A stretch of DNA of 64,000 bases from Bacteroidetes bacterium 47-18 (GTDB lineage Bacteria > Bacteroidota > Bacteroidia > Chitinophagales > Chitinophagaceae). The notes below the pieces were generated by a model. It did not search any database. It saw only the letters and a list, made by a program, of their open reading frames with translations, and was not told the origin of the DNA. Within the stretch, counting starts at the first letter, position 1; each line of letters starts with the position of its first letter. A program made the translations under genes and the position numbers. The DNA lies in the NCBI GenBank assembly GCA_001897155.1, contig MKSF01000013.1, positions 186,001 to 250,000 of the forward strand. Reading direction: 5' to 3'. Positions 22,692 through 24,947 of the stretch are shown here, in pieces.

Positions 22692-22871
22692 ATAGTTTAA
22701 ATATCGGTAATAATTAATTGTGTGCGGTTCAGTAACCAGAGCGTAAAAATAATAACTTATTACCATTTAGCTGCACATATACGGTGAAATACCATATTTT
22801 TTCGTTGAATCCCTTGAATACTCCGCCGGAGTTTGTACATTTATTTTTCAAAAAACACAGTATTACAGATT

Positions 22872-23399
22872 ATGGCAGTATTACGCCCCTTTAACCTCAG
22901 GCAATGGATCGATGACAACCGTCATTTACTGAAGCCCCCCGTAGGCAACCAGCAGGTATATAAAGCCGCGGATGATTTTATCGTAATGGTGGTAGGCGGC
23001 CCCAACAGTCGCAAGGATTTTCATTATAACGAAACCGAGGAGCTGTTCTACCAGCTGGAAGGCGATGTGGTGGTAAGGATCATTGAAGACGGTAAGATTG
23101 TCCCTATTGAAATTAAAGAAGGCGATATGTTCCTCCTACCGGCCAGAGTGCCGCATTCCCCCCAGCGCGGTCCCAATACCGTAGGCCTGGTGATAGAAAG
23201 GGTAAGACCTGCGGATATGCTGGACAGCTTTGCCTGGTATTGCGAGCAATGCAGCAATAAGCTGTATGAAAAATTCCTGCCCGTAGCCGATATCGTCAAG
23301 GAGTTGCCTCCGGTGATGAACGCCTTCTATGAAAATGACGACCTCTGCACCTGTAAGCAATGCGGGCATAAGATGGAAAAGCCGCAGCTCCGGTCCTGA
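22872..23399 (+). CDS. nbaC: 3-hydroxyanthranilate 3,4-dioxygenase
   Basis: Opens the ring of 3-hydroxyanthranilate to 2-amino-3-carboxymuconate semialdehyde in the kynurenine pathway of tryptophan breakdown and NAD synthesis. The 175-residue cupin has the metal ligands H51, E57 and H95, the same spacing and numbers as the well-studied bacterial enzyme. It also has the second, rubredoxin-like metal site (C124/C127 and C161/C164). The ATG at 22872 gives the family-typical start MAVLRPFNLRQWID. No other kynurenine-pathway gene is adjacent. Confidence 0.96.
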   Translation: MAVLRPFNLRQWIDDNRHLLKPPVGNQQVYKAADDFIVMVVGGPNSRKDFHYNETEELFYQLEGDVVVRIIEDGKIVPIEIKEGDMFLLPARVPHSPQRGPNTVGLVIERVRPADMLDSFAWYCEQCSNKLYEKFLPVADIVKELPPVMNAFYENDDLCTCKQCGHKMEKPQLRS

Positions 23400-23484: not shown

Positions 23485-23515
23485 TTTGTTTTTTATCACG
23501 GGGGAATTAATTTTG
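23485..23515 (+). promoter_or_regulatory. Promoter of the lysC leader
   Basis: TTTG at 23485-23488 and TAATTTTG at 23508-23515 are separated by 19 bp, an exact match to the Bacteroidota consensus. A second TAATTTTG overlaps at 23481-23488. The leader ATG is at 23539 and lysC starts at 23682, so the transcript would have a leader of about 160 nt. Confidence 0.75.
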
Positions 23516-23538
23516 CGTCCGAAATTAACAGTTTATTC

Positions 23539-23589
23539 ATGCAAATAAAGAAACACAATAAGATGATGAAGTGTATTACCCGGCGGTAA
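23539..23589 (+). CDS. Putative lysC leader peptide (16 residues)
   Basis: The short frame MQIKKHNKMMKCITRR has 15 residues after the start, and ten of them (4 Lys, 2 Met, 2 Ile, 1 Thr, 1 Asn) are amino acids made from aspartate, the pathway opened by the downstream gene. Its last codons and stop overlap the strand that can pair with the terminator arm. The peptide is too short for a function of its own; its translation is inferred to be the sensor of an attenuator. Coding status rests on codon content, position and the overlapping RNA structures. Confidence 0.6.
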   Translation: MQIKKHNKMMKCITRR

Positions 23590-23657
23590 TTCCTGTCTTT
23601 TATTGTGTTCTGGAAACTATAAATAAAGAAAGGCTTACCGTACCGGTAGGCCTTTTT
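23552..23657 (+). promoter_or_regulatory. Candidate transcription attenuator of lysC
   Basis: Three structures can form. (a) A terminator with arms AGGCTTACCG (23631-23640) and CGGTAGGCCT (23644-23653), followed by TTTTTT and extended by AA/TT pairs. (b) An antiterminator in which CCGG+CGGTAA (23580-23589, the end of the leader ORF) pairs with TTACCG+CCGG (23635-23640 and 23643-23646), 10 bp with a 2-nt bulge; it uses the left arm of the terminator. (c) A 10-bp stem AACACAATAA (23552-23561) with TTATTGTGTT (23600-23609) across the leader codons. Structures a and b exclude each other. A ribosome at the leader stop would mask 23580-23589 and favour termination; stalling at Lys or Met codons would free it. 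Confidence 0.65.
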
Positions 23658-23681
23658 TGATTATTGAATTATATACCTGAT

Positions 23682-24947
23682 ATGAAAATATACAAATTCG
23701 GAGGCGCTTCCATAGCCACACCTGCAGCAATGAAAAACCTGCTCAGCATTATCAAGAACGCTGACATTCCCCTGGTCATCGTGGTATCGGCCTTTGGCAA
23801 GACCACCAATGCACTGGAACAGATAGCAGCTGCTGCCAATGACGGCGATAAGGACAAGGCCCGGGAATTGCTGCTGCACATAGAGTTATCTCACAATAAC
23901 TATGCCCTGGAGCTGCTGGGGGAAGAAGGCTTCCAGCAACTGCTGCCCCGCCTGCAGGAATGCTATACCGAGATCCAGTGGGCCATAGATGACGGCGGCA
24001 TACAGAGCAAAGATTATGTATATGACCAGATCGTATGCGTGGGAGAATTATTATCCACCACCCTGTTTTCCGAATACCTGCGTTCCGAAGGCCTGCACAA
24101 CAAATGGCTGGACGCCCGGGATATGATCCGGACGGACAGCATCTACCGCGACCCGAACGTGGACCTGGAACTGTCCGGCACCCTCACCCGCAATATTATC
24201 CTGCCTGCCCTCCAGGAAGTGAAATATATCGTCACACAGGGCTTTATAGGCTGTACCGACGAAAATAACTCCACTACGCTGGGCAGGGAAGGCTCCGATT
24301 ATTCCGCGGCGCTTTTCGCCTATATGCTGGACGCCGTGTCCGTAACCATCTGGAAGGATGTAAAAGGCCTGTACAATGCCGACCCGAGGCTGTTCCCCAA
24401 TGCCGTACAGATAGATGAGATCACCTATATAGAAGTGATCGAGATGGCCTACTTCGGGGCGCAGGTCATCCACCCCAAGACCATCAAGCCGCTGGAGAAC
24501 AAAAATATCCCGCTGTATGTAAAGTGCTTCCTGGATGAGTCCATTAAAGGCACCTGCATCAAAAAAGAGATCGATGCCTACCAGTACCCTCCCATTATCG
24601 TGGTAAAAAAGAACCAGGTGCTGCTGAACATCCGGTCCCGCGACCTGTCCTTTATCACCGATGACAGCATCAGCAAGATCTACAACACCTTTGCGGCCCA
24701 CCAGATCAAGATCAACCTGATGCAGAATTCCGCCATCAATCTCCGCCTGGGCGTGACCTACGAGGCAGAGCGGCTCAAAAAGCTGGTGGACGTGCTAAGC
24801 AGAGACCATATCGTCACCCTGGACAAGGATGTGGAGATCCTTACCATACGTCACTATACCAATAATATACTGGAAGATGTGATGAGAGGCAAGCTAAGGC
24901 TGCTGGAACAGAAAACCCCCAATACCATAAGGGTGGTGGTACAATAG
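23682..24947 (+). CDS. lysC: Aspartate kinase
   Basis: Phosphorylates L-aspartate, the first step towards lysine, methionine, threonine, isoleucine and diaminopimelate. The 421-residue monofunctional enzyme starts with MKIYKFGGAS (ATP site), then VVSAFGKTTNALE, and TLGREGSDYSAALFAYMLDA with WKDVKGLYNADPR in the kinase domain. Two ACT domains occupy about residues 300-421, where feedback inhibitors bind. The ATG at 23682 was preferred to one at 23664 because the conserved KFGGAS begins there. The leader region upstream suggests attenuation by aspartate-family amino acids. Confidence 0.96.
   Translation: MKIYKFGGASIATPAAMKNLLSIIKNADIPLVIVVSAFGKTTNALEQIAAAANDGDKDKARELLLHIELSHNNYALELLGEEGFQQLLPRLQECYTEIQWAIDDGGIQSKDYVYDQIVCVGELLSTTLFSEYLRSEGLHNKWLDARDMIRTDSIYRDPNVDLELSGTLTRNIILPALQEVKYIVTQGFIGCTDENNSTTLGREGSDYSAALFAYMLDAVSVTIWKDVKGLYNADPRLFPNAVQIDEITYIEVIEMAYFGAQVIHPKTIKPLENKNIPLYVKCFLDESIKGTCIKKEIDAYQYPPIIVVKKNQVLLNIRSRDLSFITDDSISKIYNTFAAHQIKINLMQNSAINLRLGVTYEAERLKKLVDVLSRDHIVTLDKDVEILTIRHYTNNILEDVMRGKLRLLEQKTPNTIRVVVQ

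Follow-up and report, generated by a model that had tools for sequence, protein, structure and literature searches.

A candidate lysine-sensing, ribosome-mediated attenuator upstream of lysC in a Bacteroidota genome

Judged from its sequence and its modelled folding, the element upstream of lysC in the 64,000-nucleotide stretch of DNA analysed here (the window) is very probably a ribosome-mediated transcription attenuator that responds to lysine, and most likely belongs to a small lysine regulon. Ribosome-mediated attenuation is strongly supported because the parts of the element are conserved in relatives and because the same RNA plan occurs with His codons in place of Lys codons. The trp/thr-type attenuation logic, which a sequence-only reading of this DNA had proposed, has gained from the comparison: the leader frame is kept across genera and in front of several genes of one pathway, as are its cognate codon, the stem, the antiterminator and the terminator.

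Most claims of that reading about the element's parts (Table 1) were confirmed. TTTG-N19-TAnnTTTG, which we take to be the Bacteroidota promoter consensus, is present, and a sigma-70 scan returned no plus-strand promoter at this site. TTTG-N(18-21)-TAnnTTTG occurs twice per strand in the whole 64 kb, and in 22 of 25 Lys-type leaders, the window's included, TAnnTTTG or TAnnTTCG lies 15-31 nt 5' of the ATG, a count that has no background rate. The 16-codon frame and its composition (Lys x4, Met x2, Ile x2, Thr, Asn) are as described, and folding reproduces both the T-tailed terminator and the 10-bp stem over the leader codons. The region 23519-23665 folds with -40.6 kcal/mol, compared to -24.9 (sd 3.3) in shuffles (z -4.7; 0 of 200 shuffles equally stable). 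Within it, the leader UUACC, the stop-codon GGUAA and the terminator-arm UUACC can form mutually exclusive pairings. The antiterminator had been described as 10 bp long; the exclusive pairing does exist, but that length requires a 2-nt bulge, and the contiguous core measures 6 bp (CGGUAA, 23584-23589, with UUACCG, 23635-23640). For the window alone, an automatic search preferred a different 7-nt helix, equalled in 102 of 300 shuffles. The support for the antiterminator is comparative.

Table 1. Features of the element and the gene downstream of it (window positions).
Feature	Position	Strand	Basis
Putative Bacteroidota-type promoter, TTTG-N19-TAATTTTG	23485-23515	+	pattern match
Leader frame MQIKKHNKMMKCITRR, 16 codons + TAA	23539-23589	+	
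Lys codon 11 (AAG), likely control codon, 16 nt 5' of GGUAA	23569-23571	+	ribosome-ahead folding, position counts
Further leader Lys codons	23548-23550, 23551-23553, 23560-23562	+	codon list
Codon-spanning stem A:B, predicted protecting structure	23549-23611; arms 23549-23573 / 23592-23611	+	fold, 10 contiguous pairs included
Region 1, leader-internal UUACC, potential partner of region 2	23576-23580	+	
Region 2, GGUAA that overlaps with the leader's stop codon; 5' half of the antiterminator	23585-23589	+	GGUA invariant in 19/19 aligned relatives
Intrinsic terminator with U tract	23626-23658	+	23626-23640 paired with 23644-23658
Region 3, GGCUUACCG in the terminator 5' arm	23632-23640	+	
Region 4, terminator 3' arm	within 23626-23658	+	
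lysC, monofunctional aspartate kinase, putative regulated gene	23682-24947	+	TIGR00657, 248.6 bits (cut-off 208.7)

The downstream gene had been taken to make aspartyl phosphate, in agreement with its assignment as an aspartate kinase. Its best score was obtained with the model of lysine-sensitive aspartokinase 3 (289.3, below that model's cut-off of 455), and it is the sole match at E <= 0.001 in the window's genome. The element at lysC is likewise the sole strong match to our covariance model there; the genome's own aat and asd are without the element, and hisG (PF01634) had no match in this genome, given as 98.79% complete. The gene 5' of the element (22833-23399) encodes 3-hydroxyanthranilate 3,4-dioxygenase, with no evident link to lysine.

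A lysC match at E <= 1e-130 was present in 57 of the family's 394 genomes, that of the window among them, and we examined the upstream regions of the other 56. Of these, 22 carry an element of the same plan, 20 before aat-lysC and two (G158, G394) directly before lysC. Three of these 22 elements, in G338, G162 and G079, are of a divergent form: their leaders carry Lys-bearing frames, with no GGTA near the frame end, GGCTTGC terminators and no promoter match. In the remaining 34 relatives, no element was present in up to 3.2 kb 5' of lysC (five stretches were shorter), and three of these (G031, G214, G147) carry one in front of a separate aat. In the genus with the closest lysC, the element precedes aat-lysC in all four genomes examined, compared with lysC alone in the window's genome. 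One aat was tested and found to be a class I/II aminotransferase (PF00155); it reached no NCBIfam cut-off, its best match being aspartate transaminase. The element also occurs before asd at 17 loci, with leaders of type MMTTKHTKRIKKHS, and before lysA at two, with leaders MISIPTAKQIKKIKLYPER and MMIYKHKSSKRFLPKW, the latter from another family. Lys-type leaders before aat-lysC, lysC, asd and lysA contain two to seven Lys codons each. Viral contigs contained no lysC relative, and at 80 lysC loci in genome contigs (<= 49% identity) model scores did not exceed 31.9 bits.

These loci are part of a larger set. A search pattern based on the window and a single relative matched in 52 of the 394 genomes, and its reversed control gave one match (G378) among the matches listed. 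The pattern's 53 places lie at hisG (38), aat (8) and lysC (3, the window among them), with four lacking a cognate gene, one of them at a contig end and with a His leader, the other three probably due to chance. Leader frames recovered at the hisG places are mostly His-rich. We then built a covariance model from 19 relatives, leaving the window out; the alignment was drawn from the 24 non-window aat/lysC leaders, omitting G243 (a near copy of G415), G214 (its element equals that of G031) and the divergent G338, G162 and G079. In this blind test, the model scored the window element at 73.3 bits (E 8e-15), with 31.1 bits for the next match in the window and 35.2 bits (E 5.3e-4) for the second-best in the whole genome. 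The 336 of 394 genomes matched at E <= 0.01 are unusable as an element count, as weak matches such as this runner-up pass that threshold. Because of this runner-up, we examined only model matches of at least 47 bits, covering nearly all among the matches listed, down to about 50 bits, with G268 among those left out, and assigned gene classes by sequence motifs. At least 48 such family matches lie at hisG (39), asd (5), aat (3) and lysA (1), none without a gene, and three of them (L277, L278, L283) are pattern matches too. At least 60 further matches, three from other families of the order, lie at hisG (45), asd (12) and lysA (1), with two lacking a cognate gene. NCBIfam confirmed one asd (385.8 bits against a cut-off of 223) and one hisG (200.1 against 75.75); both lysA genes, each only partly present, matched lysA best, under the cut-off.

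Across the class, the model matches 27 of 385 genomes at E <= 1e-6, and the 16 new loci that we examined there comprise 13 at hisG or hisG-like genes, nearly all recovered leaders there having several His codons, one at asnB, one at a trpE-like gene and one with no gene in view. The asnB locus (G761:C205:2846-2973; gene 841.7 bits, cut-off 499) carries the same device with three consecutive Asn codons (NNN) in its leader, MKTQTHNNNRFFALASR. At the trpE-like gene (G767:C1:285415-285542; best match TIGR00564, 411.8 against a cut-off of 517.7), the leader MINTQNIWWWNSLKR contains WWW, and the RNA scores 43.1 bits with Rfam Bacteroid-trp, below the gathering score of 49. The match without a gene in view (G851:C85:67-195) lies at a contig end and has a Met/Cys-rich frame, NTMMCCMMCI; it may be a leader for Met or Cys.

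Covariation in three stems had been proposed as a check, and the 19-sequence alignment provides it for two. Two-sided changes occur at 3 of 9 pairs in the equivalent of stem A:B and at 4 of 11 in that of the terminator, where 98.6% of cells are paired. The covariation score was reached by 0 of 500 shuffles and the number of two-sided pairs by 2 of 500, and slid controls were lower; kinship remains in these controls, and it was on the consensus that the structure itself was read. In the UUACC/GGUAA hairpin of the leader, 81.7% of cells are paired, with no two-sided change. Within the aat-lysC class, the antiterminator is 93.4% paired and nearly invariant, so that 219 of 500 shuffles do as well. 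Between classes, its two halves shift as a unit, GGUAAGCC/GGCUUACC before aat-lysC being replaced by GGAAGGUUUGC/GCAGGCCUUCC before several asd genes, where it reaches as many as 11 contiguous pairs. For 21 of 25 elements, no more than 21 of 300 shuffles equal the longest helix to the terminator arm; in the other four (the window, asd_G095, L424 and the lysA leader L367) it is no better than shuffles, and for lysA_G247 the automatic search chose a helix other than expected. As the aligned elements are related sequences, none of these shuffle counts is a probability.

To see which codon is placed for control, we counted positions in those leaders whose GGTA lies 38-64 nt past the start codon, 25 of 34 Lys leaders and 26 of 30 His leaders, the latter 30 having been chosen from 39 hisG loci for a visible His-rich frame. 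A Lys codon lies 13-19 nt 5' of GGTA in 24 of the 25 Lys-type leaders and in none of the 26 His-type leaders. Other residues at this position of the Lys-type leaders are Arg (11, just after Lys), Met (2), Ile (2), Thr (1) and His (1). His occupies it in 25 of the 26 His-type leaders, a count that is partly circular given how these leaders were chosen; the absence of Lys from them is less so. When codon order was shuffled, 0 of 10,000 sets of Lys leaders reached 24 (mean 14.4; the sequences are related, not independent), and 9 of 10,000 reached the observed His count in His leaders. Since Lys alone is near-constant at the control position, the predicted signal is lysine, and the earlier descriptions of the leader as tuned to Lys/Met, or to the aspartate family, are too broad.

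In the mechanism that we propose, transcription would start near 23520 and a ribosome would then translate the leader. With charged Lys-tRNA in ample supply, the ribosome would reach the stop codon and cover GGUAA, whereupon the terminator would form and lysC would not be transcribed. With Lys-tRNA scarce, it would stall with its A site at Lys codon 11, covering the leader UUACC and opening stem A:B; the freed GGUAA would pair with the UUACC of the terminator 5' arm, and transcription would continue into lysC. If the leader were not translated, stem A:B and the UUACC/GGUAA hairpin would hold region 2 and the terminator would again form. The parts, their conservation, the exchange of codons and the pairings, by covariation or complementarity, are observed here, whereas we infer that the frame is translated, that ribosomes stall on it, that transcripts do end at the hairpin and that the switch answers to lysine.

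Folding of only the RNA ahead of the ribosome, to the end of the terminator 5' arm and with the edge of the ribosome assumed to lie 15 nt from its P site, is consistent with this scheme. The antiterminator probability in the window was 0.00 without translation, 0.27, 0.23 and 0.38 at Lys codons 4, 5 and 8, 0.98, 0.98 and 0.99 at codons 10-12, Lys 11 included, 0.03 at codon 13 and 0.00 from codon 14 onwards, the stop included. Over 25 Lys leaders, mean antitermination was 0.96 at Lys codons 13-19 nt before GGTA (24 leaders), 0.88 at earlier Lys codons, 0.00 at the stop and 0.44 without translation (0.92 in G415); default termination in untranslated leaders is therefore not general. In three leaders (of G026, G102 and G226), the frame passes through GGTA and stops further downstream, so that simple cover by a ribosome at the stop codon is not an exact fit there. 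Frames running past GGTA are also seen in several His leaders.

The alternative closest to this reading, an attenuator answering to several aspartate-derived amino acids (Lys together with Met or with Thr/Ile), appears unlikely to us. In the window's leader, Lys 11 follows a Met-Met pair, and the folding model allows antitermination at Met codon 10 too; moreover, all 17 asd leaders contain HTK with a fixed Thr. At the control position, however, Met, Ile and Thr are as rare as counted above, and in asd and lysA leaders Lys lies 13-19 nt before the leader's own antiterminator in 15 of 18, compared to 4 for Thr (one more could not be placed).

That a lysine-coding frame is maintained at all bears on a second alternative, a metabolite riboswitch or protein-bound leader in which the short frame is incidental. 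Such an RNA would be expected to be stable and conserved, as this one is, and the lysine riboswitch governs lysine genes elsewhere, according to the accessible part of PMC1262725. In 22 non-redundant Lys leaders, however, the frame is open to GGTA in every case, as had been asked of close relatives, and the other two frames are stopped in 21 and 22. These leaders contain 82 in-frame Lys codons, compared with 34.5 (sd 3.9) in dinucleotide shuffles and with 13 (frame 1) and 20 (frame 2) in their other frames, and Lys codons in leaders vary synonymously (AAA:AAG = 69:70). The repeated leader residue, moreover, tracks the downstream gene (His, Lys, Asn, Trp). No Rfam family reached its gathering score in the window, and the lysine riboswitch was absent from the 39 matches at E up to 10. 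We thus give this alternative very little credence. Least probable of all, indeed barely credible, is a plain terminator of the upstream dioxygenase gene with a frame arising by chance: terminators are common between co-directed genes, and lesser model matches in this genome, taken for bare terminators, reach the 35.2 bits given above, but a promoter-like site separates the upstream gene from the hairpin, the full match scores 73.3 bits, and the element keeps its position before lysine-pathway genes in other genomes.

Taking lysine-responsive attenuation as the preferred reading, one can ask how the Lys, His, Asn and Trp leaders are related. They might represent one modular Bacteroidota chassis with exchanged codon blocks, together with a pathway-wide lysine regulon that replaces the lysine riboswitch, an idea for and against which we see about equal grounds. 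The chassis would consist of the leader UUACC, the frame-end GGUAA and the GGCUUACC/GGUAAGCC terminator, and the blocks would be His for hisG, Lys for aat-lysC, lysC, asd and lysA, Asn for asnB and Trp for trpE. RNA control by lysine is known through the riboswitch, as the accessible parts of PMC2659441 and PMC1262725 describe, and a ribosome reading Lys codons would be a second solution to the same task, used at several pathway genes. Leaders of common plan with either His or Lys codons amount to a natural codon-exchange experiment, which could reveal the codon that is read. Lysine control is predicted also for asd, for lysA and for the aminotransferase adjoining lysC.

Leader-peptide attenuation in general is textbook knowledge, and the thr operon attenuator is a ribosome-mediated attenuator before an aspartokinase gene that senses Thr/Ile. 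The survey of Vitreschak (2004) reportedly does not name lysine. As in the general class, codons for the pathway product are clustered here in a short leader conserved in relatives, and mutually exclusive antiterminator and terminator are placed for a stalled ribosome, the window's antiterminator being short. The window is not a member of the Thr_leader family RF00506 (19.4 bits, gathering score 55). T-box RNAs gave no match at the gathering score in the window and none among the Rfam matches at E up to 10. The lysine riboswitch (L-box, RF00168) is likewise an RNA leader that places lysC under lysine control, as given in the accessible parts of PMC2659441 and PMC1262725, but it binds the small molecule directly. 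In its accessible text, PMC1262725 treats lysine as riboswitch-controlled and His, Thr and Phe as attenuator-controlled. A proposed Thr/Lys leader in Sinorhizobium, SEP5, has six Thr and three Lys codons, is called "possibly a leader peptide" and lies in the 5' UTR of a gene called aspartate dehydrogenase in PMC10117765; from the accessible part of that paper, it differs in being mainly Thr, in its phylum and in having no described switch. Among the matches listed, a literature search with subscription papers mostly outside its reach returned no lysine-only ribosome-mediated attenuator, and as far as this limited search shows, a leader-peptide switch for lysine alone appears undescribed.

Within Bacteroidota, the earlier remark that no described leader of this kind was known does not hold in its general form. 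The accessible part of PMC2864571 lists a Trp leader motif of this phylum (RF01692), and that of PMC9723704 reports strong clues to leader-peptide attenuation before Bacteroidota amino-acid operons, hisG and pheA having conserved elements at their 5' side. RF01692 (Bacteroid-trp), the Bacteroidete tryptophan peptide leader, is a leader-peptide RNA from the same phylum and weakly similar; the window scores 25.8 bits with it (E 0.55, gathering score 49), is not a member and has no Trp codon in its leader. The closest likeness is to the histidine-operon attenuators before hisG in the same family, which share the plan of a short leader with the antiterminator at or near the frame end, cognate codons mostly 13-34 nt before GGUA and, as here, a GGCUUACC...GGUARGCC terminator, but have His codons and hisG where the present element has Lys codons and genes of the lysine pathway.
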